Shown here: piece by piece, positions 39,052 to 60,314 of the stretch | Position numbering within the stretch: the stretch's first letter is position 1 | Layout of the letters: each line of letters begins with the position of its first letter | Assembly: GCA_003139095.1 (NCBI GenBank) | Contig: PLHW01000011.1 | Location: 1 to 64,000, forward strand | Direction of reading: 5' to 3' | Length of the DNA stretch: 64,000 bases | From: Acidobacteriaceae bacterium | Lineage (GTDB): Bacteria > Acidobacteriota > Terriglobia > Terriglobales > Acidobacteriaceae | Position numbers and translations under genes: made by a program | The notes under the pieces: model-generated | Told to the model about the DNA's origin: nothing | The model's input: only the letters and a program-made list of their open reading frames with translations | Database searches by the model: none

Positions 39052-39091
39052 GAGTGGGCAACCCCTTGCACCCTGCCAAACAAATTCATAT

Positions 39092-39109: not shown

Positions 39110-39120
39110 TTGCGCGAGTC

Positions 39121-39149: not shown

Positions 39150-39167
39150 AGGGAAAATGCGCCGCTC

Positions 39168-39614: not shown

Positions 39615-39621
39615 GCCCCTC

Positions 39622-40086: not shown

Positions 40087-40121
40087 GAACTGCTCCTTAC
40101 CTCGCGCTCAGGAGGTTACGC

Positions 40122-41282: not shown

Positions 41283-41284
41283 GA

Positions 41285-44821: not shown

Positions 44822-45625
44822 ATGCTTCATCTCGTCGTCTGCCTCAAACAGATCCTCGATCCCGAAATCCCCCCCGCCGACTTCAAGCTCGATCCCTCCG
44901 CCCAGCGAGCCGCCCCGACCGCCTCCCTCGTCGCCAGCATCTTTGACGAAAATGCCCTCGAAATCGCCCTCCAACTGCGCGAGAAAGTCGGCGACGCCAG
45001 GATCACCGCCATTTCTCTTGGCCCTCCCTCCGCCGTTGACGTCCTTCGCAAGGCCCTTTCCATGCGTGCCGATGACGCGATCCTGATTCGCGAGGAAGAT
45101 TTCCCCGGCATTGACGCCCATGGCTGCGCGCGCGTTTTGGCGGCTGCCATTCGCAAGCTCCCTCCCGCCGACCTGATATTGTGCGGCCGCGAGACCGGCG
45201 ATTGGCACGGCGGCCTCGTGGCCGCTTTCCTCGCCGCCGAGTTCGACCGTCCTTACACTAATTTCGTCGCCGGCATTACCAAAGAAGGCGACCATTTCCA
45301 CCTGCGCCGCCAGACCGAAGATGGCTGGGAGATCGTTCGCTCCGCGGCCCCCGCCGTCATCACCGTCACCAACGACGACCACAATCTCCCTCGTATTCCC
45401 AAAGTTAAGGACAACATGATGGCGTTCCGCAAACAAATCCCGGCCTGGACGGCGAGCGACCTCGGACTGGTCCCGGCCAGCGTTGCCGGACCAAACTCAA
45501 AGCTGGAACAGTCTCGCCTCTACGTCCCGGTCGTCGATCGCAAATGCGAGATCATAACTGGCGATAACGCCGAAGCAAAAGCCCGCCAACTGGTCGAACG
45601 CCTCGCGGCATTGCAGGTAATCTGA
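44822..45625 (+). CDS. etfB: Electron transfer flavoprotein, beta subunit
   Basis: A 267-residue EtfB. It has the family start LHLVVCLKQILDP, the ALSMRADDAILI region, and the ADLILCGRETGDWHGG stretch typical of beta subunits. It lacks the long bifurcation-type features I would look for, so it is probably a conventional ETF that collects electrons from acyl-CoA dehydrogenases. It is the first gene of the long plus-strand operon, behind the promoter and operator at 44.74-44.80 kb, and its stop overlaps etfA. Confidence 0.92.
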   Translation: MLHLVVCLKQILDPEIPPADFKLDPSAQRAAPTASLVASIFDENALEIALQLREKVGDARITAISLGPPSAVDVLRKALSMRADDAILIREEDFPGIDAHGCARVLAAAIRKLPPADLILCGRETGDWHGGLVAAFLAAEFDRPYTNFVAGITKEGDHFHLRRQTEDGWEIVRSAAPAVITVTNDDHNLPRIPKVKDNMMAFRKQIPAWTASDLGLVPASVAGPNSKLEQSRLYVPVVDRKCEIITGDNAEAKARQLVERLAALQVI

Positions 45626-46605
45626 TGCGGAACGTACTTGCCATCCTCATTCCCGCCGGCGCTTTCAGCCGCACTGAAGCGGAAACTATTACCGCAGGCA
45701 AAAGTCTCGCCGCACAACTCGGTGCCGATCTGTCCGTCGGAATACTCGGTCCCTCGGATGACTCGTTCGCTCGCGAATGTTTCGCCTTCGGCGCAAAGTC
45801 TCTCACCCGCGTAGAAGGGCTCGCTGCCTACCAGAGTGAAGCGTACTCCGCCGCCGCTCAGCAGATCGCCGCGAGCGTGGCTGCCGATGTCATTCTCTTC
45901 CCCAGCACCACCTACGGCCTTGAGATCGCCCCGGGCGTCGGCTATCGCCTCGGCGCAGCCGTAATTCTCGATTGTGTAGGCTTGATCGGTGATTCATCGG
46001 GTAATCTCACCATCACCAAGCCCGTCTATGGCGGCAAGGCAAATTCCGAACTCATCGCGCGCCAAGGTCCCGTTGTCATCGCCATGAGAATGCGTTCGGT
46101 TGCACCCGGCGAAAAGCAGGATGGCGCGACGGGCGAAATCAATACGATCCCAGCCCCGGCGCTTAGCCCAAGAACGCAGATCCTTGAGCACACGACAGAA
46201 GACACCGGCAGCGGTCCCAAACTCGAAGACGCCCGCGTCATCATCAGCGGCGGACGCGGCCTTGGCAACAAAGAAAACTTTGTTCATCTGGAGGAACTGG
46301 CGCGCCTGCTGGGGGGCTCGGTCGGCGCTTCTCGCGCGGCCTGCGACCAGGGCTGGGTCCCGGCCACTTTGCAAATCGGTCAAACCGGTAAGAAAGTCGC
46401 CCCGGACCTGTACCTGGCCGTCGGTATTTCCGGCGCCAGCCAGCATCTGGTCGGCATCGCAGGCGCTCGTCACATCGTCGCCATTAACAAAGATGCGAAG
46501 GCGCCCATTTTTCAGGTTGCCGCTCTCGGTGTAGTCGACGAATGGCAAGCCTTGCTTCCCAAACTCGTAGTCGCTTTAACAGAACATAAAGCCAGGAATT
46601 CCTGA
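45625..46605 (+). CDS. etfA: Electron transfer flavoprotein, alpha subunit
   Basis: A 326-residue EtfA. The C-terminal FAD domain has the family block VIISGGRGLGNKENF, then GASRAACDQGWVP, QIGQTGKKVAPDLYLAVGIS and GASQHLVGI, ending with AINKDAKAPIF. With EtfB it carries electrons from the two acyl-CoA dehydrogenases to a quinone reductase, likely the FeS protein encoded next. One base overlaps between the two genes. Confidence 0.94.
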   Translation: MRNVLAILIPAGAFSRTEAETITAGKSLAAQLGADLSVGILGPSDDSFARECFAFGAKSLTRVEGLAAYQSEAYSAAAQQIAASVAADVILFPSTTYGLEIAPGVGYRLGAAVILDCVGLIGDSSGNLTITKPVYGGKANSELIARQGPVVIAMRMRSVAPGEKQDGATGEINTIPAPALSPRTQILEHTTEDTGSGPKLEDARVIISGGRGLGNKENFVHLEELARLLGGSVGASRAACDQGWVPATLQIGQTGKKVAPDLYLAVGISGASQHLVGIAGARHIVAINKDAKAPIFQVAALGVVDEWQALLPKLVVALTEHKARNS

Positions 46606-46614: not shown

Positions 46615-48651
46615 ATGACGCCTACACGCGAGGTCTTCTTCAATATTCGGCACGTCTGGGTGATGTACGCCCTCTTCGCCGTGACTCTCGCGATTTTCTC
46701 TTATGGTTTTTGCCGCCATTGGCAGCGGTGGTCGCGCGGCCTTCCCGCCTCCCGCACCGACCGCCCCTGGCAACGGTTGCAAGGCTTGTTGCGCCAGACT
46801 GCCGCTCACGACCGTCTCCTCAAGCGCTATCGCGCCGCCGGATTCTTTCATCTCCTCTTTTTCTGGGGAATGGTCATCCTCACCGCCGGCACCACCGTCG
46901 TCTTCATTCACAACGATCTCGGCATCCACATCATGCAGGGAGCGTTCTACCTCTACTTTCAGAGCCTCACGCTGAACATATTCGGCGCACTCTTCATCGT
47001 GGCCCTGCTCGCCGCCCTGGTCCAGCGTTACGTCGCGCGACCCTCCCGCCTCAAACCTGACCATTGGCAGGACGGCCTCATCCTTATTCTCCTCCTCACC
47101 ATCCTCCTCACCGGATTCATCCTCCAAGGCGCGCGCATTCAACTCACGCGCGACCCCTGGGGCGCATGGTCTCCGGTTGGCAACGTCGCCGGTTCCCTTC
47201 TCGCTCGCCTCTTCGGCGTCGACGGCCTTCGGCAACTCCACCTCTTTACTTGGTGGTTTCACATGGCGTTGGTGTTCGGCTTCATCGCGTGGATTCCCTA
47301 TTCCAAGCTGATGCACCTGCTCACGGCTCCGGCCAACATCTATCTCCGCGATCTCGAGCCACGCGGCGCACTTCCACTTCTCGATATAGAGAAAACCGAA
47401 GCGCTCGGCATCAGCCGCCTCGAACAGTTCTCCTGGAAAGATCTGTTCGACCTCGACGCCTGCACCGAGTGCGGCCGCTGCGAAGTCAACTGTCCGGCCA
47501 ATATTTCAAACAAACCGCTCTCTCCGAAGTGGCTGATCCTCGACCTCCAGAAGGCCTCCCGCGCCGAACATGCCGCCGCCCCCACTCCTCCGCCAAACCC
47601 AGAAGAACCCTCGCCCCTCGTAGGTCCGGTCATCCGCGAAGAAACCTTGTGGTCCTGCACTACCTGCCGCGCCTGCATGGAACAGTGTCCCGTCATGATC
47701 GAGCAGGTTCCCAAAATCGTGCAGATGCGTCGCCACCTCGTAATGGAGCGCGCCGAATTCCCCGACGACCTCCAGGGCGTCATTCGCAGCCTCGAAGCTC
47801 GCGGCCATCCTTACCCCGGCTCCAGCGCCTCGCGCAGCGACTGGCACAAGGATCTCGACGTTCACGTTCTCAGCGATAAGCCCGGCCAGTCCTTCGACGT
47901 GCTTCTCTGGGTCGGCTGCGCCGGCGCCATGAATGACCGCAGCAAATCCGTCACCCGAGCCGTCGCGCAATTGCTGCAAGCCGCCGGCGTCAGGTTCGCC
48001 ATCCTCTCGCGCGAAGAAAAATGTACCGGCGATCCCGCCCGCCGTATTGGCCACGAATTTTTGTTCCAGCAACTCGCCCAGGAAAACATCGCCACCTTCG
48101 ACCGCTACGGCGTCAAGAAAATCCTCACCTCCTGCCCGCACTGCTTCAACACCCTCCGCAACGAGTACCCGCAACTCGGCGGCAACTATCAGGTCATCCA
48201 CCACAGCGAGTTTCTTCAGGAGCTCGTCGCCAGCGGCCGTCTCAGGCCCGAAGCCACCGCTCTCGGCAAAGTCGTCTTCCACGATCCCTGCTATCTCGGC
48301 CGCTACAACCAGGTCTACGGCGCGCCGCGCCAGTTGCTCGATTCCGTGCCCAACTCCCAGCGTGCCGAAGTCCCCAACTGGAGCGCCCGCAACGCCCTCT
48401 GCTGCGGCGGTGGCGGCGGCTTCTCTTTCATGGAAGAAAAGACCGGCACGCGCATGAGCCACAACCGTTCCCGCCAACTTGTTTCAACCGGAGCCGACAC
48501 CGTAGCCGTCGGTTGCCCTTTCTGCATGACGATGCTCGAGGACGGCGTAAAAACCGTCTCGCCGGAAGGTCAAACGCCGCGCGTCCTTGACATCGCGGAA
48601 GTCCTCGCCCAAGCCATCATGCAAAATCCAGCGCAGGAGCCCGGCCGATGA
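46615..48651 (+). CDS. Membrane (Fe-S)-binding oxidoreductase, ETF:quinone oxidoreductase-like
   Basis: A 678-residue fusion. The N-terminal third holds about five membrane segments (near 15-35, 75-95, 118-140, 155-175 and 210-232) like nitrate-reductase gamma or HdrE, with His residues that may bind haem b. Next come two 4Fe-4S motifs, CTECGRCEVNC (about 283) and CTTCRACMEQC (about 347), and two CCG domains of the HdrD/GlcF type (SCPHC near 505, ALCCGGGGGFS near 598). Such proteins next to etfAB are thought to pass electrons from ETF to menaquinone. The short gap after etfA and four-base overlap with the next gene place it in the operon. Confidence 0.9.
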   Translation: MTPTREVFFNIRHVWVMYALFAVTLAIFSYGFCRHWQRWSRGLPASRTDRPWQRLQGLLRQTAAHDRLLKRYRAAGFFHLLFFWGMVILTAGTTVVFIHNDLGIHIMQGAFYLYFQSLTLNIFGALFIVALLAALVQRYVARPSRLKPDHWQDGLILILLLTILLTGFILQGARIQLTRDPWGAWSPVGNVAGSLLARLFGVDGLRQLHLFTWWFHMALVFGFIAWIPYSKLMHLLTAPANIYLRDLEPRGALPLLDIEKTEALGISRLEQFSWKDLFDLDACTECGRCEVNCPANISNKPLSPKWLILDLQKASRAEHAAAPTPPPNPEEPSPLVGPVIREETLWSCTTCRACMEQCPVMIEQVPKIVQMRRHLVMERAEFPDDLQGVIRSLEARGHPYPGSSASRSDWHKDLDVHVLSDKPGQSFDVLLWVGCAGAMNDRSKSVTRAVAQLLQAAGVRFAILSREEKCTGDPARRIGHEFLFQQLAQENIATFDRYGVKKILTSCPHCFNTLRNEYPQLGGNYQVIHHSEFLQELVASGRLRPEATALGKVVFHDPCYLGRYNQVYGAPRQLLDSVPNSQRAEVPNWSARNALCCGGGGGFSFMEEKTGTRMSHNRSRQLVSTGADTVAVGCPFCMTMLEDGVKTVSPEGQTPRVLDIAEVLAQAIMQNPAQEPGR

Positions 48652-49643
48652 CCCGCTTCCCTTTGATCGCTCTCGACCCCTCCGGCGACGGCCTCCATCT
48701 CGCAACGCCCGACCCCATGTGGCGCGAAGCCTGGTACTTCGAGGTCTACGACCCCGCGTCCCGCGTGCAGTTTCACGCCTACCAGGGCGTCTTTCCTAAC
48801 GCCGGCACCGGCGATCTCACCGCCGCGTTTTTTGTTGAAGACCGGCGCGTGCACGAAATTATGAAAGTAGATTTCACCGTGCCCGCCGATCCGATCGAAG
48901 AACGCCTAAACTTCGGCCCCATGAAAATGGAAATGCTCGAGCCCTTCGAGCGCTGGCGCATTCGCTACGACGCCGAAGTCACTGCCGATCTCATATTCGA
49001 GGCCGTGCACGCCCCTTACAGTTGGGCCGAGTCGCGTCTCTTCATGGAGAGTACCAGCGACCACGAGCAGCGCAGCCAGCACTTCGATCAACTCGGTCGC
49101 TATACCGGAACCGTCTGGGCGGCCGGCAAGGCCTATCCCGTCAACGCTCTCGGTTTCCGGGATCGCATGTGGGGGTGGGGCGCCCGTCGCCATTGGACGA
49201 GCTACATCGTCATGTGGGCCGCCTTCTCCGAAGACTTCGTCGCCAACGTCTCCATCCAGAATTTTGCCGACGGCACGCAGGGTCTCTGTGGCTACATCCT
49301 TCAGGATGGCGAGCGTTCTCTCGCGCGCCATGCTCGCGTCGAGTTGCAATGGCATCCGCATCGCTGGCGTACCGTGCAGCACGCGGTTATTCATCTCGAA
49401 GATCGTCTCGGCCGCGAAGTCGAACTCACCGGCGTACCTCTTGGCGTCTCCGACACTTCGCATCGCTGGAAGCATCGCCGCGATCACATGCTTTTCAGTC
49501 TCGGCACCTATCATTGTGGCAATGCCGTTGGCCACGGCGTCATGAACTGGGCCTTCCTGACCGAAGCTTTGCGGCCCAATATTTTGGAAGCGAATTTGCC
49601 CGACCCCGCGGTGGCCGGGAATTTTCAGACCAGGCAGGCGTAA
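48648..49643 (+). CDS. Lipocalin-like DUF7064/DUF7065-type protein
   Basis: A 331-residue beta-rich protein. Near the start it reads PMWREAWYFEVYDPASRVQF, and near residue 170 GFRDRMWGWGARR, a signature shared with the protein at 59388-60314 and reminiscent of CrtC/AttH-like lipocalin folds (DUF7064/DUF7065). Members of this group are encoded near lipid and terpenoid catabolic genes. No catalytic residues can be assigned. Its ATG overlaps the FeS-oxidoreductase stop, so it is part of the operon. Confidence 0.72.
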   Translation: MTRFPLIALDPSGDGLHLATPDPMWREAWYFEVYDPASRVQFHAYQGVFPNAGTGDLTAAFFVEDRRVHEIMKVDFTVPADPIEERLNFGPMKMEMLEPFERWRIRYDAEVTADLIFEAVHAPYSWAESRLFMESTSDHEQRSQHFDQLGRYTGTVWAAGKAYPVNALGFRDRMWGWGARRHWTSYIVMWAAFSEDFVANVSIQNFADGTQGLCGYILQDGERSLARHARVELQWHPHRWRTVQHAVIHLEDRLGREVELTGVPLGVSDTSHRWKHRRDHMLFSLGTYHCGNAVGHGVMNWAFLTEALRPNILEANLPDPAVAGNFQTRQA

Positions 49644-49666: not shown

Positions 49667-50806
49667 ATGATCGCAACCGGACAAATCGAGCAAGTGAATC
49701 ATGGGCTCCACGAATACGGCGAGAGTGTGCGCCGATTTTTCCGCGAGCAGCAGCGCTCCTCCATGGTCTCGCCGCTCTTCAACATTCCCGGCCGCATGAT
49801 CCTCGGTGCCTACTGCTATTACGAAAATCTCGTTCCGCTCCTCCGCTTCGTCACCTCGCTCGAAAGTCCCGAATACATCGCCCGCCGCATGAAGCGCCCC
49901 TGTAGTCTTCCGAACTCCATCAACATTCACTCACTCATGCTGGGTTACTTCAACGGACGCGAGCAGTCGCGCTTGCTCGGCCGCCCGATGCGCGACAACC
50001 TAGCGGAGATCGCCGCCCTCATCGACTTCTGGGCTCGCGTAACCTCCGTTTATCACGAGGAACGCGCGCACGTGCCGGATGGCGCGGCGTTTCGCTTGCC
50101 CGTGCTGCCACGAGCGTCCGTCGAAAATGTCGCCGCCTCGCTCCGTCAGCCCTCCGCTAACGAACAACATGCCATTCGGCGCATGATGGCCACGCTCGAA
50201 CTCTTCACTTTTATTCTGAATGGCGAATCCCGCATCGGCGTCTTTCACCACGGCCCGTATCCCCTCCCCGACGGCGACGTTCTTATGTTCAAAGAAATGG
50301 TCGGTCTGCAAGAGGATTTTTATTCCTGGGCGACCCCAGACGTTCGTCTTCCCGTGTCCGGCATCGCCCGCGTCATGCGCCTGCGCGGCGTTCAAGTCAA
50401 AATCGTCCACATGGGCAGCATGACCACCGAGCCCGCCAACTACCAGGAGAAAATTGTCGCCGAGGAACTGTTCACCTGCGAGCATAGCGCTCTGCGTCCC
50501 TTGCGTGCCGACGAGATCTCCGCCATCACTCAGTCCGCCGCCAACGCGCAGATGGAGTTGTACCGCCGCATGATCGCCTGGGACGATAAATTTCGCGTCG
50601 CTTACGGCGCCGAACTCTACGGACAAATTCTAGGGCGCTTCGCCCCGCTTGGTCACGAGCAGCATTTCCGGAAGATGATCCGCGAGTCCTTTGCCGCATC
50701 GGTCGCAAAGCACGTGGATGACCTCGCTGGCGGCAAAGAGCCGCCGCTGATTTTGCAGCACATCGCCAGCACCGACGGGCCTATTTACGCGCCCGTCGCT
50801 GGCTGA
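49667..50806 (+). CDS. Protein of unrecognised family, paralogue of the next gene
   Basis: About 379 residues from ATG 49667; the frame is open further upstream, but that part lies inside the previous gene. No known domain is recognised. It is mostly helical, without signal peptide, with a central GVFHHGPYPLPDGDVLMFKE block (about 190-210) and a VAEELFTCEHSA block (about 263). The neighbouring protein has corresponding GTFGHGPYPQSDGSIIVVHE and LAESLFTRTGDG blocks in the same order, showing tandem duplication. A role tied to the carboxylase or phosphotransfer genes downstream is inference. Confidence 0.7.
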   Translation: MIATGQIEQVNHGLHEYGESVRRFFREQQRSSMVSPLFNIPGRMILGAYCYYENLVPLLRFVTSLESPEYIARRMKRPCSLPNSINIHSLMLGYFNGREQSRLLGRPMRDNLAEIAALIDFWARVTSVYHEERAHVPDGAAFRLPVLPRASVENVAASLRQPSANEQHAIRRMMATLELFTFILNGESRIGVFHHGPYPLPDGDVLMFKEMVGLQEDFYSWATPDVRLPVSGIARVMRLRGVQVKIVHMGSMTTEPANYQEKIVAEELFTCEHSALRPLRADEISAITQSAANAQMELYRRMIAWDDKFRVAYGAELYGQILGRFAPLGHEQHFRKMIRESFAASVAKHVDDLAGGKEPPLILQHIASTDGPIYAPVAG

Positions 50807-50818: not shown

Positions 50819-52027
50819 ATGGCAGATGCTCTTTCGTTGGAAGAGATGAATCGCATCATCGCTCTGTTCGGCGCGAGCCAGAAAAGCTTCATGCGCCTCG
50901 AGCAGCGCTCGTCTCTGCGCTCTGCCTTGTTCGATGTGCCGCGTCGCTCCTCACTGGGCTGGATCGGGATCTACCAGCATGGCGCTTCCCTGCTGCGTCA
51001 ACTCACCGCTTTAGTCGCGCCCGAAGAAATCGGCCGCCGCATGAAACAACTCTGCTCCCGTCCTTACTATCTCCAGCTTTCTATCTTGATGTGCAGCTTC
51101 CTGGGCGCGCGCCAGCAGATGATCCTCGACCTCGGTCTCAAGCCCGGCGAGCCTCTGCCCGGCGAAAACGACGCCCGCGTCGAAGACGCTCTCTTTCTCG
51201 TCGACTTCTGGCGTCGCGTCGCCCGCACTTACCGCAACGATGGCTGCCTCCTCCCCGCCGAAAACGGCTACACGCAGGCGATCCTGCCGCAAAGCATCGT
51301 CGATGAACTCGCCCGCCTCATCGAGCCCTGCACTCCCGATCACCGTCGCAGCGTTCGCCGTCTCGCCGCCACTCTCGATCTCTACTCCTTCATCCTTCAC
51401 GGCGAGCAGCGCGATGGCACGTTCGGCCACGGCCCGTATCCGCAGTCCGACGGCTCGATCATCGTCGTTCACGAGTACAACGATCTGCTCAATCAATTCC
51501 TGCCCTGGGCCGAAACCGCAACCCGCAACCTCTATCCGAATCTCGCCATCGTCCGCCGCCTCAAAGCCGACGTGCACGCTCGCTTCGATTTGTTCGGCAG
51601 CATCCTCTACACGCCCGCCGACGTGGATTCGTTTATTCTCGCGGAGTCACTTTTTACTCGCACCGGCGACGGCACTCTCCGCCAGCTTCCCTGGGAGGAG
51701 ATTCCCGAAATTCAGCATCGCGCCGCCGAGGCGCAAAACGAACTCTACCTGAAAGCCGCCGGTTGGACTCCGCGCTACAAGGCGGAGTACGGCGTCTACC
51801 TTTTCGCAAATCATCTCTACCCGTTCTTCCAGATTGCAGGCTTGGATCCCAGTTGGGGTGAAACCATCCGCCGTGCCTTTGAAGCCGCGGTTGCGCCGCT
51901 CGTCGACCCCATGCTGCAAAAACCGGACATTCCTTCGATCTGGCCTTTTATGGCAACCACTGAAGGCGACTTCTTCTGGCCCGTCACCAGAAGGCACGCG
52001 CTTTCCTCAACCGTGCTGGCACATTAA
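50819..52027 (+). CDS. Protein of unrecognised family, paralogue of the previous gene
   Basis: A 402-residue protein from ATG 50819, 12 bases after its paralogue. It shares with it an N-terminal helical region with a conserved RRMKxxCS pattern (GRRMKQLCSRPYY), a VDFWRRV/IDFWARV helix, the GHGPYPxxDG loop (about 201-210) and a C-terminal helix pair ending in a PIYAP/FFWPV-like motif. His and Asp in the GHGPYP loop could bind a metal or phosphate, but this is speculation. No signal peptide or membrane segment. I do not recognise the family. Confidence 0.7.
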   Translation: MADALSLEEMNRIIALFGASQKSFMRLEQRSSLRSALFDVPRRSSLGWIGIYQHGASLLRQLTALVAPEEIGRRMKQLCSRPYYLQLSILMCSFLGARQQMILDLGLKPGEPLPGENDARVEDALFLVDFWRRVARTYRNDGCLLPAENGYTQAILPQSIVDELARLIEPCTPDHRRSVRRLAATLDLYSFILHGEQRDGTFGHGPYPQSDGSIIVVHEYNDLLNQFLPWAETATRNLYPNLAIVRRLKADVHARFDLFGSILYTPADVDSFILAESLFTRTGDGTLRQLPWEEIPEIQHRAAEAQNELYLKAAGWTPRYKAEYGVYLFANHLYPFFQIAGLDPSWGETIRRAFEAAVAPLVDPMLQKPDIPSIWPFMATTEGDFFWPVTRRHALSSTVLAH

Positions 52028-52031: not shown

Positions 52032-54170
52032 ATGAAACCATCCCCAGGGACCCGCAACTCTTCGAGTACAGCCAAAGCCCAGTACTATTTCTGCGGCATC
52101 GACATCGGCGGCACCTTTACCGATTGTGTCGTCCGTGACAACCACGGCCGTCTCACCATCGCCAAGGCGCTCTCCACGCCTCATGATTCCTCCGAGGGCT
52201 TCTTCAACGCGCTCACCGCGGCCGCGGAAAAAATGGGCATCACCCTCACCGATCTCTTGAGCAAAACCCGCCACCTGATGCATGGCACCACTCTCGGCAC
52301 CAACGCGCTGCTTGAACGCAAGGGCGCGAAGACCGGCCTCATCACCACGCGCGGCCACGCCGACGCCATCATCATGATGCGCTCGGTCGGCCGTTCCGCC
52401 GGGCTGCCCATCCATCGTCTGCACCACGTCTCTCGGCATCAGAAGCCCGATCCCATCGTTCCCCGCAGCCTGATCTGCGAAGTGAGCGAGCGCATGGACT
52501 GGAGCGGAGAAGTGGTTCTACCCCTCAATGAAGAGGAAACTCGCCAGGCCGTCCGCCACCTGGTTGACTCCGGCGTCGGTGCCATCGGCATCTGCTTCCT
52601 CTGGGGTTTTGTGAATCCTGCACACGAACTCGCCGTCAAGCGCATCGTGCAGCAAATGGCGCCCGACATGTATGTCACCTGCGGCCACGAACTCGTCGCC
52701 AAGCCCGGCGAATATGAGCGCATCGCGGCCGTCGCCATCAATTGTTTTATCGGCCCGCTCATGTCGCGCTATCTCCACAAGATCGAAGAAAAGGCCCGCG
52801 ACTTCGGCTACCGTCGTCCGCTCGTCATCATGCAGGCCTCCGGCGGCGTCGCCGGAGCCGAAGATGTCGCCGATCGTCCTCTCTTCACCATCGGCTCAGG
52901 TCCCGCCGGCGGCCTCACCGCTTGCGGATTCCTCGCCAAACAACTGGGCCACCGCAACGTCCTCGCGTCCGACGTCGGCGGCACCAGCTTCGACGTCGGC
53001 CTCATCCACGAAGGCCAGCCCCTCAGCACCAGTCAGAGCACCATCAATCAATACACCTTCTCCGTGCCGCACCTCGACATCGAATCCATCGGCAGTGGCG
53101 GCGGCTCGCTCATCTGGGTTGACGAGCGCTCTGGCACACTCAAAGTCGGTCCGGAATCCGCTGGCTCGAACCCCGGCCCCGTTTGCTACGGCCACGGCGG
53201 TCAGCGTCCCACCGTCACCGACGCCAATCTCGTTCTCGGCTACTACGATCCCAATTACTTCCTTGGTGGAAAGCTCACGCTCGACAAGCCTGCCGCCCAC
53301 GCCGCTCTCGAGCGCGTCGGCCGCGAGCTCGGTATGACCGCCATCGAAGCCGCCGCTGGCGCCATTCGCATTGTCGAATTCCAAATGGCCGAACTCATGC
53401 GCCAGATGTCGGTCCAGCGCGGCCTCGATCCCCGTGAATTCGTCGTCTACTCCTACGGCGGAGCTGCCGGCGCTCATGCCGCCACCTACGCCCGCGAGCT
53501 GGGCGTCACAACCGTCGTCGTGCCTCTCGGTTCCACGGCTTCCACGTGGTCGGCGCTCGGCGTTCAAGCCGCCGACCTCATCCATGTCTATGAAAAAGCC
53601 GAACTCATGATCGCGCCCTTCAATGCCGCCCGCATTAACGAAATCTTCTCCGCCCTCGAAAAGAAAGGGCGGGCACAGCTTCGCAAGGACGGCATTGCCT
53701 CCAAAGATATTTTCCTTGAGCGCCACGTCGAGATGAAGTTCAAACTCCAGATTCATCTCGTCGAAGTTCCCGTTCGCGAAGGCAAACTCACCGCCCGCCA
53801 CCTCGCCGCCTTGCAAAATGATTTCGTGGAAAAGTACGAGCGTACTCACGGCAGGGGCTCGGCCTTCACCGGTGCCGGCACTGAGATCGGCCTTTTCCGC
53901 GTCGTCGCCCGCGGCCGCATGGAGCGTCCCGCCGTCTCCGAATATCAGCGGCAGCACACTGCCAAGGCCGTTCAGTCGCGCTCGGTTTACTGGCCGCAAA
54001 AAAATGGGTTCCGCAACACGCCCATCTACGACGCTTCAAGCTTGAAAGCGGGCCACGTCGTGCGCGGCCCTGCAATTATTCAAATGCCCGAAACCACATT
54101 GGTCGTACCGCCCTTCGCTCATGGCGGCTTCGACAAGTTCGGCAACATTGTTCTCAGGCTGACGGATTAA
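52032..54170 (+). CDS. Hydantoinase A/acetone-carboxylase-type alpha-like subunit (HyuA family)
   Basis: About 712 residues from ATG 52032, five bases after the preceding stop; a frame from 51834 lies in the previous gene. The ASKHA-type ATP-binding fold is clear: GIDIGGTFTDCVVRD (about 20), HGTTLGTNALLERKGAKTGL (about 80), TIGSGPAGGLTACGF (about 288) and DVGGTSFDVGL (about 314). This family includes hydantoinases, 5-oxoprolinase and the ATP-using subunits of acetone and acetophenone carboxylase. The adjacent beta gene supports a carboxylase reading because of its zinc-binding tail. It should phosphorylate the substrate enol or bicarbonate. Confidence 0.9.
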   Translation: MKPSPGTRNSSSTAKAQYYFCGIDIGGTFTDCVVRDNHGRLTIAKALSTPHDSSEGFFNALTAAAEKMGITLTDLLSKTRHLMHGTTLGTNALLERKGAKTGLITTRGHADAIIMMRSVGRSAGLPIHRLHHVSRHQKPDPIVPRSLICEVSERMDWSGEVVLPLNEEETRQAVRHLVDSGVGAIGICFLWGFVNPAHELAVKRIVQQMAPDMYVTCGHELVAKPGEYERIAAVAINCFIGPLMSRYLHKIEEKARDFGYRRPLVIMQASGGVAGAEDVADRPLFTIGSGPAGGLTACGFLAKQLGHRNVLASDVGGTSFDVGLIHEGQPLSTSQSTINQYTFSVPHLDIESIGSGGGSLIWVDERSGTLKVGPESAGSNPGPVCYGHGGQRPTVTDANLVLGYYDPNYFLGGKLTLDKPAAHAALERVGRELGMTAIEAAAGAIRIVEFQMAELMRQMSVQRGLDPREFVVYSYGGAAGAHAATYARELGVTTVVVPLGSTASTWSALGVQAADLIHVYEKAELMIAPFNAARINEIFSALEKKGRAQLRKDGIASKDIFLERHVEMKFKLQIHLVEVPVREGKLTARHLAALQNDFVEKYERTHGRGSAFTGAGTEIGLFRVVARGRMERPAVSEYQRQHTAKAVQSRSVYWPQKNGFRNTPIYDASSLKAGHVVRGPAIIQMPETTLVVPPFAHGGFDKFGNIVLRLTD

Positions 54171-54202
54171 GGATTAACGACTAAGGATTAAGGAGACACG
54201 GC

Positions 54203-56536
54203 ATGGCGGTCCAAACCAAAACGAAGCCCGGCGCGCCCAAATCCGCTGCCCCACCAGCCATTCAATGGGATGGTCGCACCTACCCCTATTGCCCACCCGC
54301 CCGTCTCAACATTGATCCAAGCCTCCGCCTCCATTCCAAAGCGGCCAAACAACTCGACCCCGTCACCTTCGAAGTCGTGCGCCACGCCATGTGGAACGTC
54401 AATGTCGAGCACGGCAACACCATCATGAAGATCTCCGGCTCGCCCATCTGTGCCTACGGGCACGATTTCAATCCTTGCCTCCTCGACGAAAAAGGCGACT
54501 TCGTCTTCTTCGGCCCCTTCCTGCAATATCTCTCTTCGCCCATCGGCTCCGCCGTCAAGTGGACCATGGAGAACCGCTCCGCCAATCCCGGCATTCATGA
54601 CGGCGACATTTTTCTCACTAACGATCCGTGGATCGGCTCCACTCACCAGTCCGACGTCGCCCTCTTCGCCCCCGTCTTCTGGAAGGACGAACTTTTCTGC
54701 TGGGTCGGCAACAGCCTTCACCAGTGGGATCTCGGCGGCACTTCCCCCGGCGGCTTCAATCCGCAGGCCGTCGACGTGTACTGGGAATCCGGCTGCATCC
54801 CTCCCATCAAGATCGTCGAAAAAGGCGTACTCCGCCGCGACCTCGAAGAAGAATATCTCCGCCGCTCCCGCGTCCCGCAACTCGTCGCCCTCGATCTCCG
54901 CGCCGAAATGGCCGGCTGCAACGTCGCCCGCGAGCGCATTCGCGGCCTCCTCGCGCGTTACGGCGCCGAAACCGTCAAAGCCTCCATGCGCAAGTTGCAG
55001 GACGACTCCGAAAAAGTTTTCGTCGAGCGTCTGCGCACCATCCCCGACGGCACTTGGAGCGAAATTGGCTGGATCGAAATGGCCAACCCGCAGGATCGCC
55101 ACATCTATCGCAACTGCGTCGTCCTCACAAAAAACGGCGACAAGCTAATCTTCTCCAATGAAGGCACCGACCCGCAGTCCGGCACGCTCAACTGCACCAC
55201 CGTGGGCTGGAAGGGCGCCATCGCCTCTATGATCTGCGCCCAAATGCTCTTCGACCAGATGTTCGTAGTCGAAGGCGCTTACCGCCACATGGAATTCGAC
55301 CCCACGCCCAGCACGCTCACCTGCGCCACCTTCCCCGCCGCCGTCAGCGCTGCGCCCGCGCTCACACTCCTCCAAACCATCGCCCTCGCCGGCATAGCAA
55401 TTTCCAAAATGCTCGCCTGCTCCTCCGACCCCGCCCTCCGCTCCGAAGTGCAAAGCTGCATGGGCGCGCCCATGTATCCCGTCGCCGCCTTCAGCGGCCT
55501 CGATCAGCGTGGCACTCCCTTCGCCTCGTTTTTGCTCGACCCTGTCGGCGCCGCTCTCGCCGGACTCTCATGGCGCGATGGCGTCGACACTGGCGGCTGG
55601 CCTTGGGATCTGCAAAGCACCATGCCCAACGTCGAAGAGCACGAACTCTTCTATCCCATCCTTTATTTATGGCGTCGCGAGCTCGCCGATTCCGGTGGGG
55701 CCGGAAAATTCCGCGGAGGCAATTCCGCCGAGCTCGCCTTCATCCCGCATAAAACCGATCGCATCAGCTTCTTCACCGCCACCGGCCACTGCGCCGTGCC
55801 TCCGCCCAGCCTCTTCGGCGGATACCCTTCTTCCACCACGCGCTACACCATGCGTCGCGGAGCCCACGCCCGCGACCTCATGGCCACCACCGGCAAGCTC
55901 CCCGATCACACCAACGCTCTGCGCGGCCACAGCGAGTATCTCGCCCCAAAATCTTTCAACGTCCCGCAGGAAAAAGATGACGCATTCATGCTCTCCTGGG
56001 CCGGAGCCGGCGGCTACGGTGATCCTCTCGAGCGCGATCCCGCCAGCGTCCGCCACGATATCCTCTCCGGCGTCTGCACTCACGATTGGGCCACCCGCGT
56101 CTATTGCATCGTCCTCGACGCCGACAACAATTTAAACGCCGAAGCCACCGCCGCTCTCCGCGCCGATCATCGCCGCCAGCGCTGCGCCAATGCTCCCTCC
56201 TCACCTCGCCGAACCATCGACGCCCAAAATGCGCGCCAGGTGCAGGAAGGCCTTCTCCTCGCCGCCACCGCACGGGGCAAAGTTCTCGCCTGCTCCAAAT
56301 GCCACACCGAAATCTGCGCCGCCTCCGACAATTACAAACTTCACTGCGCCAGTCTCGATCTCCCCGTCACTGACGCCAACCCGCACGTTCTCGATCCTCA
56401 CAATTACATCGACGACGAAGTCCTGTTCCGTCTCTACTCCTGTCCCGCCTGCGGCCTGCTGATCCAAACCGAAATCCTCCGTCCCGGCGACGAGCCGCTC
56501 GCCGATCTCCACATCGAGGAGAGACGCGCCCGATGA
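54203..56536 (+). CDS. Hydantoinase B/acetone-carboxylase-type subunit with gamma-like C-terminal zinc domain
   Basis: A 777-residue protein. The HyuB core occupies about residues 45-640 and contains FLTNDPWIGSTHQSDV (about 135) and NSLHQWDLGGTSPGG (about 170), resembling the metal-binding His/Asp blocks of acetone carboxylase. The last 80 or so residues hold LACSKCHTEIC and YSCPACGLLIQTE, two C-x2-C pairs that look like the separate gamma subunit of acetone carboxylase, here fused. Together with HyuA this predicts ATP-dependent carboxylation of a ketone. The stop overlaps the CoA ligase start (ATGA), as expected if the beta-keto acid is next converted to its CoA ester. Confidence 0.88.
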   Translation: MAVQTKTKPGAPKSAAPPAIQWDGRTYPYCPPARLNIDPSLRLHSKAAKQLDPVTFEVVRHAMWNVNVEHGNTIMKISGSPICAYGHDFNPCLLDEKGDFVFFGPFLQYLSSPIGSAVKWTMENRSANPGIHDGDIFLTNDPWIGSTHQSDVALFAPVFWKDELFCWVGNSLHQWDLGGTSPGGFNPQAVDVYWESGCIPPIKIVEKGVLRRDLEEEYLRRSRVPQLVALDLRAEMAGCNVARERIRGLLARYGAETVKASMRKLQDDSEKVFVERLRTIPDGTWSEIGWIEMANPQDRHIYRNCVVLTKNGDKLIFSNEGTDPQSGTLNCTTVGWKGAIASMICAQMLFDQMFVVEGAYRHMEFDPTPSTLTCATFPAAVSAAPALTLLQTIALAGIAISKMLACSSDPALRSEVQSCMGAPMYPVAAFSGLDQRGTPFASFLLDPVGAALAGLSWRDGVDTGGWPWDLQSTMPNVEEHELFYPILYLWRRELADSGGAGKFRGGNSAELAFIPHKTDRISFFTATGHCAVPPPSLFGGYPSSTTRYTMRRGAHARDLMATTGKLPDHTNALRGHSEYLAPKSFNVPQEKDDAFMLSWAGAGGYGDPLERDPASVRHDILSGVCTHDWATRVYCIVLDADNNLNAEATAALRADHRRQRCANAPSSPRRTIDAQNARQVQEGLLLAATARGKVLACSKCHTEICAASDNYKLHCASLDLPVTDANPHVLDPHNYIDDEVLFRLYSCPACGLLIQTEILRPGDEPLADLHIEERRAR

Positions 56537-58107
56537 ACATTGGCACCATCGCCTCGCGCAACGCATGGCGCTACCCTAATAAGGTCGGCCTCGTCGACGC
56601 CAACAACGGCCAGCGCATGACGTGGGCTGAGTTCAACTCCGCCGTAAACCGTCTCGCGCACGCCCTGCTCGCTCGCGGTCTAAAAAAGGGCGACGCCATC
56701 GCCATCTACTCGCGCAACAGTCTCGAGTACATGCAGCTCTTCATGGCCGGCGCAAAAACCGGCATCGTCATCCAGCCCATGAACTGGCGCTTCAACGCCG
56801 ACGAAATCGCCTACACCCTCAAAGACGGCGCCCCGCGCGGCATCCTGGTCTCCGCCGAGTACGCCACCCTCTTCCGCACAATTCAGCATCAACTCTCTTC
56901 CATCGAATTTGTCGCCGGCATCGGCGCCGGCCACGCCTTCGACCTCGACTTCCACACTTGGATCGCGCCCTGCTCCACCAACGAACCTGACACCGTTACC
57001 CACGTCGGCGACGGCGACCTCTACTTCGTCTGTTACACCGGAGGCACGACCGGCATCGCCAAAGGTGTCATGATCACGCATCGCAACGCGCTCACCACCT
57101 GCATGAATATGACCGTCGCCGAAACCATCTCCACCGACGACGTCTATCTCGTCATGGGTCAGATGTTCCACATCGCCGTCCTCCTCCCGCACGGCTACAT
57201 GTTCCACGGCGCTCGCGTCATCATCCTTAACTTTGAAGCGCGCAAAACTCTCGAGGTCATCCAGGCCGAGCGCGTTACCAGCTTCCTCGCCATCTCCACC
57301 ATGATGAACTACCTCCTCGACGTGCCCGACTTCGCCTCCTTCGACTTGAAGTGCGTGCGCCTCCTCTCCTACGGCGGCGGCCCGTTCGCCACCGCCACGC
57401 TTCGCCGCGCTGCTCACGCCTTCCCCGGCGTCGGCTTCCTCCAGTACATGGGGCAAACGGAGGTAAGCATCATGTCGGCATGGCTCGGCCCCGAGGATCA
57501 TCGTCTCGGCATGACCACGAATCCTCGCCTGTTAAGCTCCTGCGGCCGCGAAGCGCTCCTCTGCGATTGCCGCGTCGTCGACGAAAATGACCACGAAGTC
57601 CCGCGCGACGGCAAGACTCCCGGCGAGATGCTCGTGCGCGGCGACAACGTCATGCGCGGATACTGGAAAATGCCCGACCTAACTGCGCAAACTCTGCGCG
57701 GCGGCTGGTGCCACACCGGCGACGTCGTCACCTGGGACGAGCACGGCTATTTCTACGTCGTCGATCGCAAAAAGGACATGATCGTCTCCGGCGGCGAAAA
57801 CATTTACACTCCCGTCGTCGAAGACGCCATCTACAAGCATCCCGCCGTCAAAGAATGCGCCGTCATCGGTGTCCCGCATCCCGTCTTCGGCGAAACCGTG
57901 AAAGCCATCGTCGTCCTCTGTGACGGCATGAACGCCACCGAGTCCGAGATCATCGAAACCTGCAAGCAGCACCTCGCCGGTTACATGAAGCCCACCTCCG
58001 TTGAGTTCGCTAGCGAATTGCCCAAGGCCCCAACCGGCAAGCTGCTCAAGCGCGTGCTCCGCGAAAAATACTGGGGCGGCGAGACTCGCCGCGTGGGAGG
58101 CGCATAA
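56533..58107 (+). CDS. AMP-forming acyl-CoA synthetase
   Basis: A 524-residue ANL ligase. Motifs are VCYTGGTTGIAKGVM (about 163), YGGGPFATAT (about 280), a QYMGQTEVS adenylate-site block (about 305), GWCHTGDVVTWDEHGYFY (about 392) and PTGKLLKRVL near the end with the catalytic Lys. The P-loop Ser is replaced by Gly (YTGGTTG for YTSGTTG), a common variant. Four-base overlap with hyuB argues that it activates the carboxylation product, as benzoylacetate-CoA ligase does in acetophenone degradation. Confidence 0.92.
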   Translation: MNIGTIASRNAWRYPNKVGLVDANNGQRMTWAEFNSAVNRLAHALLARGLKKGDAIAIYSRNSLEYMQLFMAGAKTGIVIQPMNWRFNADEIAYTLKDGAPRGILVSAEYATLFRTIQHQLSSIEFVAGIGAGHAFDLDFHTWIAPCSTNEPDTVTHVGDGDLYFVCYTGGTTGIAKGVMITHRNALTTCMNMTVAETISTDDVYLVMGQMFHIAVLLPHGYMFHGARVIILNFEARKTLEVIQAERVTSFLAISTMMNYLLDVPDFASFDLKCVRLLSYGGGPFATATLRRAAHAFPGVGFLQYMGQTEVSIMSAWLGPEDHRLGMTTNPRLLSSCGREALLCDCRVVDENDHEVPRDGKTPGEMLVRGDNVMRGYWKMPDLTAQTLRGGWCHTGDVVTWDEHGYFYVVDRKKDMIVSGGENIYTPVVEDAIYKHPAVKECAVIGVPHPVFGETVKAIVVLCDGMNATESEIIETCKQHLAGYMKPTSVEFASELPKAPTGKLLKRVLREKYWGGETRRVGGA

Positions 58108-58109
58108 AC

Positions 58110-58451
58110 GTGCAAAAACTTGGCCGAGGCATGCTCATCTCCGGCGCCGAGTGCACCGGCGTTCTCCGCGTCGTCGAAACCGTTCAGGATGTCATCGCCC
58201 TCATGAAAACCGACGTCTCCAACGTCATCCTTTTCACCCGCTCCGCTTCCGCCACCACCGTCACGCCTCTGTTCTCGCGCATCAAGGGCGTCGTCTGCAC
58301 CGCCGGCGGGCCTACATCTCATCTCGCCATCGTCGCCCGCGAGTTCGACATCCCCTGCGTCATGGCCAGCGAGATTTACTACGACGGCAATCTCGATCTC
58401 CAGAACATCCTTATTAATAAGGAGGGCGAGATCTTCCTCGCGCCCGCATAA
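58110..58451 (+). CDS. Stand-alone PEP-utilising phosphohistidine (mobile) domain
   Basis: A 113-residue protein from GTG 58110, two bases after the ligase. It is only the swivelling domain of PEP synthase/PPDK-type enzymes, with the phosphohistidine site GGPTSHLAIVAREFDIP (His71). In full PEP synthases this His shuttles phosphate between an ATP-grasp domain and a PEP/pyruvate TIM barrel. Here the TIM barrel is a separate gene and the ATP-grasp part is absent from the window. Phenylphosphate synthase is a known split relative. The natural phosphate acceptor here is unknown. Confidence 0.88.
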   Translation: MQKLGRGMLISGAECTGVLRVVETVQDVIALMKTDVSNVILFTRSASATTVTPLFSRIKGVVCTAGGPTSHLAIVAREFDIPCVMASEIYYDGNLDLQNILINKEGEIFLAPA

Positions 58452-58452
58452 A

Positions 58453-59361
58453 ATGGACCGCCCTCCCACCCGCACTCGCATCTACATCAATCTCAGCTTC
58501 CCGGAGCTCTCCGCGAAGTATGCCAAGCTTTCCTGCGATGGTGTCGGCATCATGCGCGCCGAATTCCTGGCGCTCTCCCTCGCCACGCATCCCGACCAGA
58601 TCATCGCCGAAGGTGGCGAAGAAAAATTCATTGACACCTTCGCCCAGGGCCTGGAAAAAGTCGCCCGCGATTTTTTCCCTCGTCCCGTCACCTATCGGAC
58701 CCTCGACCTCAAGTCCAACGAATACGCCGGGCTCGTTGGCGGCGATAAATTCGAAGAGCGCGAAGAAAATCCCATGCTCGGCCTTCGCGGCTGCGCCCGC
58801 TATCTCGCCAGCCCCGCCAGCTTTCGCCTCGAACTCCGCGCCGTGAAGCGTGTCCGCGAGTCCGGCCTCACCAACGTCCGCCTCATGGTTCCCTTCGTCC
58901 GTTTCCCGCGCGAACTGGCCGAGTGCCGCAACATCATTCACGAAGAAGGCCTGTTCGCCGATCCCTCTTTCGAATTCTGGATGATGGCCGAAGTTCCTTC
59001 CACCATCTTCCTCGCCGATGAATTCCTGCCTCATGTCAGCGGCGTCTCCATCGGCTCCAACGATCTTACGCAGCTCATCCTCGGCATCGATCGCGACTCG
59101 CGCAAACTCGCGCCCTCATTCGACGAGCGCGACCCCGCCGTCCAGAAAGCCCTCGAAATACTCGCCGCCGCCGCCCGCCGCCACAGCAAACAACTCTCCA
59201 TCTGCGGCGACGCGCCCTCGCGCCACCCCGAGATGGTCGAGCGCCTCGTCGCTCTCGGCCTCACCGCGATCTCCGTCTCGCCCGAGGCGTTCGCCCGAAC
59301 TGTCCAATTGGTCGCCGATGCCGAAGCTCGCCTCGGCATTCCGAATCCTTCATCCGTCTGA
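58453..59361 (+). CDS. Stand-alone PEP/pyruvate-binding TIM-barrel domain
   Basis: A 302-residue protein equal to the C-terminal domain of PEP synthase. Substrate-site residues are kept: Arg35 in GIMRAEFL, Arg82 in YRTLDLKSNE, Arg112 in LGLRGC, Glu180 in MMAEVPS, Asn203-Asp204 in IGSNDLTQL, and the proton-donor Cys251 in SICGDAPS. So it should bind PEP or pyruvate and exchange phosphate with the His protein encoded one base upstream. It lacks the ATP-grasp and swivel domains. Direction of flux (PEP to His, or reverse) cannot be told from sequence. Confidence 0.88.
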   Translation: MDRPPTRTRIYINLSFPELSAKYAKLSCDGVGIMRAEFLALSLATHPDQIIAEGGEEKFIDTFAQGLEKVARDFFPRPVTYRTLDLKSNEYAGLVGGDKFEEREENPMLGLRGCARYLASPASFRLELRAVKRVRESGLTNVRLMVPFVRFPRELAECRNIIHEEGLFADPSFEFWMMAEVPSTIFLADEFLPHVSGVSIGSNDLTQLILGIDRDSRKLAPSFDERDPAVQKALEILAAAARRHSKQLSICGDAPSRHPEMVERLVALGLTAISVSPEAFARTVQLVADAEARLGIPNPSSV

Positions 59362-59387: not shown

Positions 59388-60314
59388 GTGTCTCTGTTAA
59401 CCCCACAAGACGAATTCATTCATCCCGTCACCGCCGAGCCCACCTGGCGCGAAGCCTTCTACTTCGATTTCTACGATCCCGCCAGCACCATCGGCGCCTT
59501 CGGTTACGCCGGCGTCCATCCCAATCAGAAAATCGGCGACCTCATTTTCGTCATGTGGCGCGGCGACGTCCTCCTCGCCCGTTTCACCCGCTGGGATTTC
59601 AACATCCCCGAAGACATCGGCGAAGACCGCTTCACCTTCAGCCCGCTCTCGTTCCATCCCATCGATCCGCTGAAGACCGTCGCCTTCGCCTACGACGACG
59701 GCGCCTGCCGCATGGACGTCACCTTCCACGCCATCCATCCCGCCTACAACTGGGCCGAGGCTCACGGCGCGCTCTCCCAAACCTCCAGCCACCACTATGA
59801 GCAGCAGGGCCGTTACACCGGATCGGTTCGCGTCGGCAATCGGCACTACACCATCAATGCCGTCGGCGCTCGCGATCATGCCTGGGGCTGGGGAAACCGC
59901 GCCGGAATTCGCCGCTGGATTTGGGCCTCGGGCCAATGCTCCGACCAACTCGCCTGGAACAGTTTCCAGATCACCCTGGGCGACGGTCGCGACGTTCTCT
60001 ACGGCTACATCTATCGCGGAAAAGAAAACGAATTCATCCGCTCCGCTAAAACCAAAGCAACCTACGCCCCCACCGGAAAAGCCCCCGAAAGTTTCGCCGT
60101 CAGCCTTGAAGGCCGCAATGGCGACAAACTTTCCGCCACCGCCCGCATCCGCAACGCCTTCAGCACCTCATTTCAGGAGCGCAACAAGACCGGCTACCAC
60201 TATTTCTGTTTCACCGAATATCAATGCGAAGGAAAAACAGGTTACGGCCAATCCAACTTCCACTGGCGCTTAGAAGAAGATCGTCCAAGAGACTGGACGG
60301 TGGTCCAGCCGTAG
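59388..60314 (+). CDS. Lipocalin-like DUF7064/DUF7065-type protein
   Basis: A 308-residue beta-rich protein starting at GTG 59388 after AAGGAGGAGG. It reads PTWREAFYFDFYDPASTIGA near the start and VGARDHAWGWGNR near residue 164, matching the protein at 48648 in both spacing and motif. The two therefore bracket the HyuAB/ligase/PEP genes. The Trp-rich GWG block and Arg-Asp-His are candidate ligand-binding residues. Function unknown; a carrier or hydratase role for a hydrophobic substrate is a guess. Confidence 0.73.
   Translation: MSLLTPQDEFIHPVTAEPTWREAFYFDFYDPASTIGAFGYAGVHPNQKIGDLIFVMWRGDVLLARFTRWDFNIPEDIGEDRFTFSPLSFHPIDPLKTVAFAYDDGACRMDVTFHAIHPAYNWAEAHGALSQTSSHHYEQQGRYTGSVRVGNRHYTINAVGARDHAWGWGNRAGIRRWIWASGQCSDQLAWNSFQITLGDGRDVLYGYIYRGKENEFIRSAKTKATYAPTGKAPESFAVSLEGRNGDKLSATARIRNAFSTSFQERNKTGYHYFCFTEYQCEGKTGYGQSNFHWRLEEDRPRDWTVVQP

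Follow-up and report, generated by a model that had tools for sequence, protein, structure and literature searches.

A stand-alone phosphoenolpyruvate-binding barrel and a phosphohistidine carrier linked to a HyuAB-type enzyme in Acidobacteriota and other bacteria: a possible PEP-driven small-molecule phosphotransferase

The closest described relatives of the system considered here are the phenolic dikinases HpeHI, CreHI and PpsAB and rifampin phosphotransferase (RPH), in which, as we propose for the present case, phosphate reaches a small molecule by way of a swivelling phosphohistidine domain (PMC12167813, PMC9618137). In the Hpe pathway (PMC9618137, PMC12167813), a two-component kinase dependent on ATP (adenosine triphosphate) phosphorylates acetovanillone (hydroxyphenyl ketones) before carboxylation, the biotin-dependent carboxylase takes only the phosphorylated ketone, and the authors suggest that phosphorylation may permit a carboxylase costing one ATP and not two. 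We describe an operon encoding a swivel domain of this kind together with a stand-alone phosphoenolpyruvate (PEP)-binding barrel and the subunits of a HyuAB-type enzyme, found in a 64,000-nucleotide stretch from an Acidobacteriaceae bacterium (assembly GCA_003139095.1, contig PLHW01000011.1, positions 1 to 64,000; hereafter the window). The operon may encode a small-molecule phosphotransferase that draws on PEP and is tied to a pathway in which a HyuAB-type ketone carboxylase takes part, a reading to which we give a chance only just short of even.

HpeHI and PpsAB rely on ATP-grasp donors and lack a PEP barrel, whereas the module has a PEP barrel and, one short contig excepted (L048, see below), no PPDK_N-type ATP-grasp gene found nearby; similarly, the Hpe carboxylase is biotin-dependent, but that of the module is HyuAB-type. 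Enzyme I of the phosphotransferase system (PTS) shares with the module both the PEP-binding barrel and the phosphohistidine swivel, but in the module these are two separate proteins comprising only PF00391 and PF02896, the barrel is nearer to PEP synthase and the setting is a catabolic operon. Enzyme I alone is reported to phosphorylate rifampicin in vitro (PMC13099321), which is a precedent for PEP-driven phosphorylation of a small molecule. The barrel is homologous to the C-terminal domain of PEP synthase and pyruvate phosphate dikinase (PPDK), but the module is without the ATP-grasp part and its swivel is of another lineage. With the 25-hydroxysteroid kinase and 25-phosphosteroid lyase of Sterolibacterium (PMC8449060 and PMC11061730, the latter setting out the kinase–lyase cascade; PDB 9fzn, 9g2i, 9g4c) the operon shares the logic of phosphorylating and then eliminating phosphate, and its proteins D1 and D2 are homologous to the lyase, with RDxxWG kept; the steroid kinase is described there as a 40-kDa ATP kinase, whereas the module has a swivel system. 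The acetophenone and acetone carboxylases (PMC5214803) have in common with the module an ApcD-like HyuB, a gamma part with two CxxC pairs and an alpha-type HyuA with ATP motifs; in the module, by contrast, gamma is fused to beta, no alpha-prime was seen in the stretches and the genes are linked to a PEP module. Among the literature matches listed, which largely left out subscription papers, none described a swivel kinase driven by PEP alongside HyuAB, or the protein family that we call U.

The gene set and its conservation

The operon includes HyuA (52032..54170, forward strand, as are all genes of the set), an alpha-type subunit with ATP motifs; HyuB (54203..56536), an ApcD-like beta subunit with a fused acetone-carboxylase gamma domain carrying a CxxC...CxxC arrangement; an AMP-forming acyl-CoA (coenzyme A) ligase (56533..58107); mob (58110..58451), a phosphohistidine swivel domain protein of 113 aa (amino acids) with His71 (PF00391, E 7.1e-14); and pepC (58453..59361), a stand-alone PEP-binding TIM barrel of 302 aa (PF02896, E 1.8e-65). 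These five genes, spaced by -4 to 32 bases, had been named in an earlier note on this DNA, and their positions and near-contiguity were confirmed. The operon is larger than that note had it, since U1, U2, D1 and D2 and the gamma fusion of HyuB had been overlooked. D1 (48648..49643) and D2 (59388..60314) are DUF7065/DUF7064 proteins, and U1 (49667..50806) and U2 (50819..52027) are paralogues of an undescribed family, which we propose as the substrate or acceptor module; all four are co-oriented with the HyuA–pepC genes, with gaps of -4 to 26 bases.

U, mob and pepC co-occur in metagenome-assembled genomes (MAGs) of Acidobacteriota, Proteobacteria and Actinomycetes, and the set is also carried by a genome of the same genus (G210) and by three genomes from two other families of the phylum. 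It is rare: U2 was found in 4 of 396 genomes of a phylum sample and a stand-alone pepC in 2 of 298 genomes of an order sample, the window's own genome being counted in both, and the remaining seven pepC matches of the order sample (E<=1e-30) sit in frames of 815-857 aa. A scan with the U1/U2 alignment, at one genome per species, gave 17 loci spanning Acidobacteriota groups, Gammaproteobacteria, Proteobacteria, Lysobacterales, Actinomycetes, Solirubrobacter and two unplaced bacteria (HR08, HR10).

We counted 15 distinct loci with mob and pepC (the window, L028, L039-L047, L050, L053, L054 and L055); the duplicate contigs L016, L027, L029 and L096 (of L041, L053, L046 and L047 respectively) were counted once in such totals, and L048, L049, L051 and L052, which are contigs of 3.2-4.6 kb with no complete mob–pepC pair, were excluded. 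U1 and/or U2 is present in all 15, and HyuA lies within the stretch in 14, the exception (L055) being a 4.5-kb contig; in L050 HyuA is split over two frames that overlap and run into the end of the locus. A PEP pair conserved apart from hyuAB, which according to the earlier note would have pointed to an ordinary split PEP synthase, was not found in these samples. The HyuB proteins of the module are at least 58% identical to that of the window. In Acidobacteriota the order is U1-U2-HyuA-HyuB-(ligase)-mob-pepC, but it is HyuA-HyuB-D1-U1-U2-mob-pepC-D2 in L044 and mob-pepC-U1-U2 in L047, with HyuA about 9 kb beyond, and in L050 HyuA stands about 7 kb past pepC. Because the linkage persists through such rearrangement we argue for a shared function: the gene set recurs in distant bacteria in altered order and is more than chance. 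The ligase is absent from several copies and is therefore placed outside the core. In the same-genus genome, a third, partial U-like frame of 198 aa (L016, 18395-18991, minus strand) lies about 5 kb from the module; it was left out of the U-locus counts.

The PEP-binding barrel, its carrier and the ATP-grasp question

The residues R35, R82 and R112 of pepC are kept in 15 of 15 relatives (a sixteenth, the fragment L049, lacks that region), and E180, N203, D204, R214 and C251 in 16 of 16, the window being one of the rows. We take these to be the active-site residues of enzyme I and PPDK, and most of the kept letters also stand in two aligned PEP synthases. In a tree of the 16 rows with 41 PEP synthases, which were picked for similarity to pepC, a branch with support 99/92 sets the stand-alone barrels apart, and pepC matches the C-terminal domain of PEP synthase at 39-52% identity. 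These comparisons indicate that pepC derives from PEP synthase. The 274 Gammaproteobacteria-class and 299 Actinomycetes-class genomes searched at E<=1e-65 yielded no stand-alone barrel beyond the seeds, one 469-aa frame aside (G1463:C8, base 511, near the contig start; a further frame, G1593:C381, is cut by the contig end). A search of plasmids with pepC returned 230 records, of which the one inspected, from Gemmatirosa (H39), is a full-length 794-aa enzyme.

In mob, His71 of the GGPTSHLA motif is kept in 15 of 15 rows, the window included; the histidine and the barrel Arg, Asn-Asp and Cys251 residues to which the earlier note had drawn attention are thus conserved across relatives. At E<=0.01 mob and pepC matched only PF00391 and PF02896, and no N-terminal HPr-binding domain of enzyme I was found in either. 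The kept residues support a PEP-to-histidine chemistry for the pair. The origin of mob was examined in a tree of 73 swivel domains over 142 columns, in which 15 module mobs and 15 swivels from U loci stand apart, with support 100/99, from the rest (38 PEP synthases, 2 PPDK, 2 ATP-grasp–swivel proteins and one HpeH-like protein). The small number of columns and some long rows call for caution with this tree, but the same split returned at 100/99 when it was rebuilt on 110 columns with seven long or odd rows dropped and the PEP synthases halved in number, and a topology joining mob with PEP synthase was rejected (approximately unbiased test, p-AU 6.8e-5). With pepC and mob thus from separate lineages, the module is a chimera, and the label 'split PEP synthase' given by the earlier note does not hold, mob being outside the lineage that gave the pepC barrel. 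Elsewhere, a short swivel-type match on a Rhizobium rhizogenes K84 plasmid (H94) is annotated agnD1, phosphoenolpyruvate binding protein.

Three PPDK-type queries against the module loci matched only the mob and pepC frames, L048 excepted; the ADP-forming acyl-CoA ligases of L047 have an ATP-grasp_5 domain, which is a different family. PF01326 occurs somewhere in 17 of 18 genome records, the exception being G661, a 2.0-Mb MAG. In nine distinct genomes (G586=G656, G593, G634=G659, G650, G651, G653, G655, G657 and G660) every PF01326 match falls in a single frame of 906-941 aa, which by its length would be a complete PPDK. In the window genome there are a PPDK frame of 942 aa and a fusion of response-regulator type (1027 aa); G210 and G652 have additional PF01326 proteins, one in G658 runs off a contig end, and in G662 and G654 there are separate two-component dikinase-like pairs without a U-profile match. 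An obligate ATP-grasp partner was accordingly not found in the sampled genomes, L048 being the nearest case. The earlier proposal that PEP charges mob without a dedicated ATP-grasp partner gained support from these results, in that the PEP residues are kept and PF01326 is confined to one PPDK-sized frame in the nine genomes. A split PEP synthase was rejected on the lineage of mob together with the lack of any dedicated ATP-grasp partner found.

Two proteins met in this search are recorded separately. The 1027-aa protein (G000:C7:105187-106401; L017 6630-9713) has a PPDK_N ATP-grasp region and, by eye, a response-regulator-like N-terminus, and is perhaps a signalling relative of PEP synthase. 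In L097, an Actinomycetes MAG, a two-component dikinase-like pair without a U-profile match (6562-7830 and 7827-9467, minus strand) joins an ATP-grasp protein with a cyclic-nucleotide-binding domain to a partner with a C-terminal swivel.

U1/U2, the lyase relatives and HyuA–HyuB–gamma

The two U proteins of the window are 34% identical, and the U1 rows share 31-39% identity with the window U2. In a 27-row alignment U1/U2 matched no Pfam or NCBIfam family, with scattered single-member matches only at E up to 1. The U2 model is predicted with high confidence (predicted local distance difference test, pLDDT, 93.7; predicted template-modelling score, pTM, 0.92), and Foldseek found no PDB chain for it at E<=0.001 and VIA-align gave Z <=2.7 at most. 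Three arginines are nearly universal: R30 is kept in 26 of 27 module rows and 12 of 12 other rows with letters, R98 in 27 of 27 and 12 of 13, and R198 in 27 of 27 and 16 of 16; a GPY motif is kept with a single Phe exception. That U corresponds to the substrate-binding domain of RPH or HpeH was considered and is unsupported by the fold and profile searches: the U profile gave no match at E<=1 to the HpeH-like protein of L097, and RPH had no match in the U2 fold search lists, a distant relation being possible and true HpeH and PpsA lying outside the comparison.

U relatives also occur apart from the module, on plasmids of Rhodococcus, Novosphingobium and Methylibium and in five genomes from the phylum to which the Actinomycetes seed belongs; the plasmid search with U2 gave 8 records, of which 6 were inspected and the other two are Rhodococcus opacus with the same match as H35. 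In 10 of the 12 non-module U loci (L030-L034, L038, L048 and L091-L095) a swivel domain is fused to U (L030, L032, L038) or stands no more than 0.6 kb away; in L033 the nearest swivel is 6.5 kb off and in L048 there is none. A PPDK_N-type gene lies in the stretch in six (L030, L031, L032, L038, L048, L095); none of the 12 showed a stand-alone pepC or HyuAB, three of them being shorter than 5 kb (L048, L092, L094) and L093 ending about 0.4 kb past U. Since the same carrier and U are found there with an ATP-grasp donor, we read the module as the outcome of a donor swap. Two of these plasmid loci have further neighbours: in L032 (Rhodococcus oxybenzonivorans, 16931-25053) swivel, U, ligase, ATP-grasp and biotin carboxylase genes are consecutive, a second pairing of a U set with a carboxylase, and in L030 (Rhodococcus opacus B4, 7993-12309) the swivel–U fusion adjoins an annotated tyrosine phosphatase and an ecdysteroid-kinase-family gene.

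The profile of D1/D2 matches 25-phosphosteroid lyase in the PDB (E 1.1e-9), the lyase entries being the only ones found by sequence profile, and the D2 model (pLDDT 91.2) matches the lyase with E 3.5e-17, a template-modelling (TM) score of 0.71 and Z 24-25, at 15-18% identity over the fold. The same model also matches a putative AttH (2ich, Z 26), pericyclases (21.8-23.2) and a hydratase (22.8). In lyase entry 9g4c, which has steroid bound, the Asp of the RDRxWG motif is Asn as compared with 9fzn; the corresponding D163 is kept in 15 of 15 D rows and is putatively catalytic. D1 and D2 match the Rv3169 family model below its cut-off. D relatives accompany U in 4 of the 12 non-module loci (L030, L031, L032, L034; weakly in L030 and L032). 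On a Mycobacterium branderi plasmid (L035, 1909-4301 and 8956-13415) HyuAB–gamma relatives lie close to a D relative, next to which are a gene annotated phosphotransferase and several P450 genes; kinase, lyase and HyuAB are grouped again there, with a different kinase type. On the Methylibium petroleiphilum PM1 plasmid (L034, 6961-10884) a D relative, U and swivel lie about 4 kb from cobalamin-binding and mutase-type genes, possibly a kinase–lyase system for another alcohol.

The C-terminus of HyuB is an acetone-carboxylase gamma domain (PF08882, residues 696-771, E 3.5e-6, passing the cut-off), two CxxC pairs, i.e. four conserved Cys, are present in 12 of 12 HyuB proteins, and the best match of HyuB is ApcD in both NCBIfam and the PDB. 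The gamma domain favours a carboxylase since, according to PMC5214803, Hyd complexes are without gamma. HyuA carries the alpha-type SERMDWSG segment, is far nearer to ApcC than to ApcA, and retains the ATP motifs GGTFTD, GGTSF(D/E) and G(S/A)GGGS wherever the frame is complete; an alpha subunit with ATP motifs together with a beta subunit is also a feature of hydantoinases and hence non-specific for a carboxylase. The NCBIfam equivalog cut-offs were missed throughout, with 426 of 1500 bits for ApcC, 194 of 1500 for ApcD and 559 of 1000 for caprolactamase alpha. HyuAB–gamma is thus a likely ketone carboxylase as far as HyuB and its gamma domain point, but HyuA is equally near to hydrolases. The kept ATP motifs imply that the HyuA reaction probably still uses ATP; they speak against PEP in place of ATP in HyuA, and the idea of PEP taking over from ATP in the carboxylase was rejected as unsupported.

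Upstream of D1 lie genes for an electron-transfer flavoprotein (ETF) alpha-like protein (45625..46605, forward strand; named by eye), which recurs in many Acidobacteriota copies, and for an iron-sulfur/heterodisulfide-type membrane redox protein (46615..48651, forward strand), found in some. Further off in the window (23951-42661, minus strand) are frames that by eye resemble thiolase, a relative of HMG-CoA (3-hydroxy-3-methylglutaryl-CoA) synthase and CoA-transferase; frames of the same appearance also adjoin the module in L043, L045, L046 and L053.

A candidate mechanism and its alternatives

In the reading that we prefer, pepC would bind PEP and, after the pattern of PTS enzyme I, load its phosphoryl group onto mob at His71; the charged mob would then swing to U1/U2 and phosphorylate an organic substrate held there, on a hydroxyl or enol of an alcohol or ketone, a ketone enol being a possible acceptor. 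D1/D2 would subsequently eliminate the phosphate in the manner of 25-phosphosteroid lyase, HyuA–HyuB–gamma would carboxylate the ketone using ATP, and the ligase or a CoA-transferase would form a CoA ester for thiolysis. From the genes described above we infer that phosphate runs from PEP to histidine, that U is the acceptor and that HyuAB carboxylates, as well as which reactions take place and in which order. PEP is a stronger phosphate donor than ATP. We argue that it would be the better donor where the product is a tertiary phosphoester: according to PMC8449060 the transfer potential of the tertiary steroid phosphoester is slightly above that of ATP, and the ATP kinase that makes it is thus fully reversible. 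The module might then represent a new class of soluble small-molecule kinase, with PEP as donor, a stand-alone barrel and swivel, and an acceptor pair U1/U2 of undescribed fold, that arose by a swap of the donor domain in a U–swivel system otherwise found with ATP-grasp and that makes high-energy (tertiary or enol) phosphoesters, for which ATP would be a poor donor, for elimination and ATP-driven ketone carboxylation; we put this at somewhat less than an even chance.

Several points weigh against this reading. The PEP-driven kinase system is known here from genes and models, and a substrate-binding role for U would follow from guilt by association, U itself having no match. On the 3.2-kb Solirubrobacter contig L048 (688-1845 and 2282-3133, minus strand) a U2 relative (46%) is convergent with a stand-alone PPDK_N ATP-grasp gene, and in its genome pepC found no match at E 1e-15; the arrangement suits a donor swap, yet the U2 branch is not bound to PEP. 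In principle mob might draw its phosphate from a full-length PPDK of the same cells, and the PPDK_N gene of L095 also matches PF00391 and, weakly, PF02896 and may therefore be an ordinary complete PPDK. The fold of D is also used by pericyclases and a hydratase. For HyuA, caprolactamase alpha is the best NCBIfam model, with 559 bits as against 426 for ApcC, both below the cut-offs, and the PDB matches are tied between ApcC (1.1e-123) and N-methylhydantoinase (4e-123), so that by these tied matches HyuA may possibly be a hydrolase. Lastly, HyuB searched against plasmids gave 925 records, none reaching 60% identity (the top identity listed is 43.6%, in a haloarchaeon), and three HyuAB–gamma relatives that were inspected (36-39%) had no mob, pepC or U in their 15-20 kb stretches.

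A PEP barrel with a phosphohistidine carrier is the core of enzyme I, and the pair could serve a PTS-like regulatory relay in which PEP-charged mob phosphorylates HyuAB, U1/U2 or another protein and the pathway is switched on at high PEP. This would agree with the window's own genome, where PF00391 is found only in PPDK and mob and no second carrier of this type was found beside PPDK. It sits poorly with U and mob travelling together, even fused, in loci without HyuAB, and the kinship of D1/D2 to a lyase that acts on a phosphorylated metabolite makes a small-molecule phosphate the better fit; we consider the relay unlikely.

The HyuA matches just given lend themselves to another account, in which HyuAB–gamma hydrolyses a lactam or amide while the PEP module acts at some other, unrelated point of that catabolic pathway. 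Against the caprolactamase score, the tie of ApcC with N-methylhydantoinase and the unreached curated cut-offs stand the ApcD match of HyuB in both libraries, the CxxC pairs in every HyuB and the absence of gamma from Hyd complexes reported in PMC5214803, and we judge a hydrolase rather unlikely.

Bicarbonate activation is a further candidate, mob and U1/U2 making carboxyphosphate in place of the Apc alpha-prime/epsilon part while HyuA makes the phosphoenol ketone with ATP. PMC5214803 assigns the phosphoenol to subunit ApcC and carboxyphosphate to ApcA; the nearness of HyuA to ApcC, its SERMDWSG segment and the presence of one HyuA in each of 13 loci, with no second HyuA (alpha-prime) within the fetched stretches, would all agree. 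Yet acetone carboxylase likewise has one alpha and no relay (PMC5214803), and U with mob occurs without HyuAB, beside biotin carboxylase genes in L032 and with no carboxylase within the annotated stretch in L031. We hold this account to be distinctly unlikely.

An ordinary PEP synthase in pieces, with an ATP-grasp protein elsewhere charging mob and pepC forming PEP from pyruvate, could draw on pepC being a PEP-synthase domain and on PF01326 in 17 of 18 genome records, but is very improbable given that PF01326 of nine genomes lies in one full-length PPDK-sized frame needing no pieces, that mob is of the other swivel lineage and that the linkage of U, D and HyuAB would be left unexplained. Reversed roles, with U1/U2 as phosphate donor through an unrecognised nucleotide site and pepC re-tooled to hold a ketone enolate as acceptor, would suit a barrel that stabilises enolates, a substrate that may be a ketone and the three near-universal U arginines, but are hardly probable with U found elsewhere beside a separate ATP-grasp gene and pepC retaining its whole PEP/pyruvate site.

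If the reading of the operon as a PEP-driven small-molecule phosphotransferase is true, swivel-type small-molecule kinases would be modular at the donor end, the ATP-grasp domain being exchangeable for a PEP site, and a PEP donor would suit phosphoesters of tertiary alcohols. It would also give a function to the undescribed U family and a possible reading as lyases to DUF7064/DUF7065 proteins, perhaps including the Rv3169 family, and the link between phosphorylation and carboxylation would then extend, after the Hpe pathway, to a second and unrelated carboxylase family.

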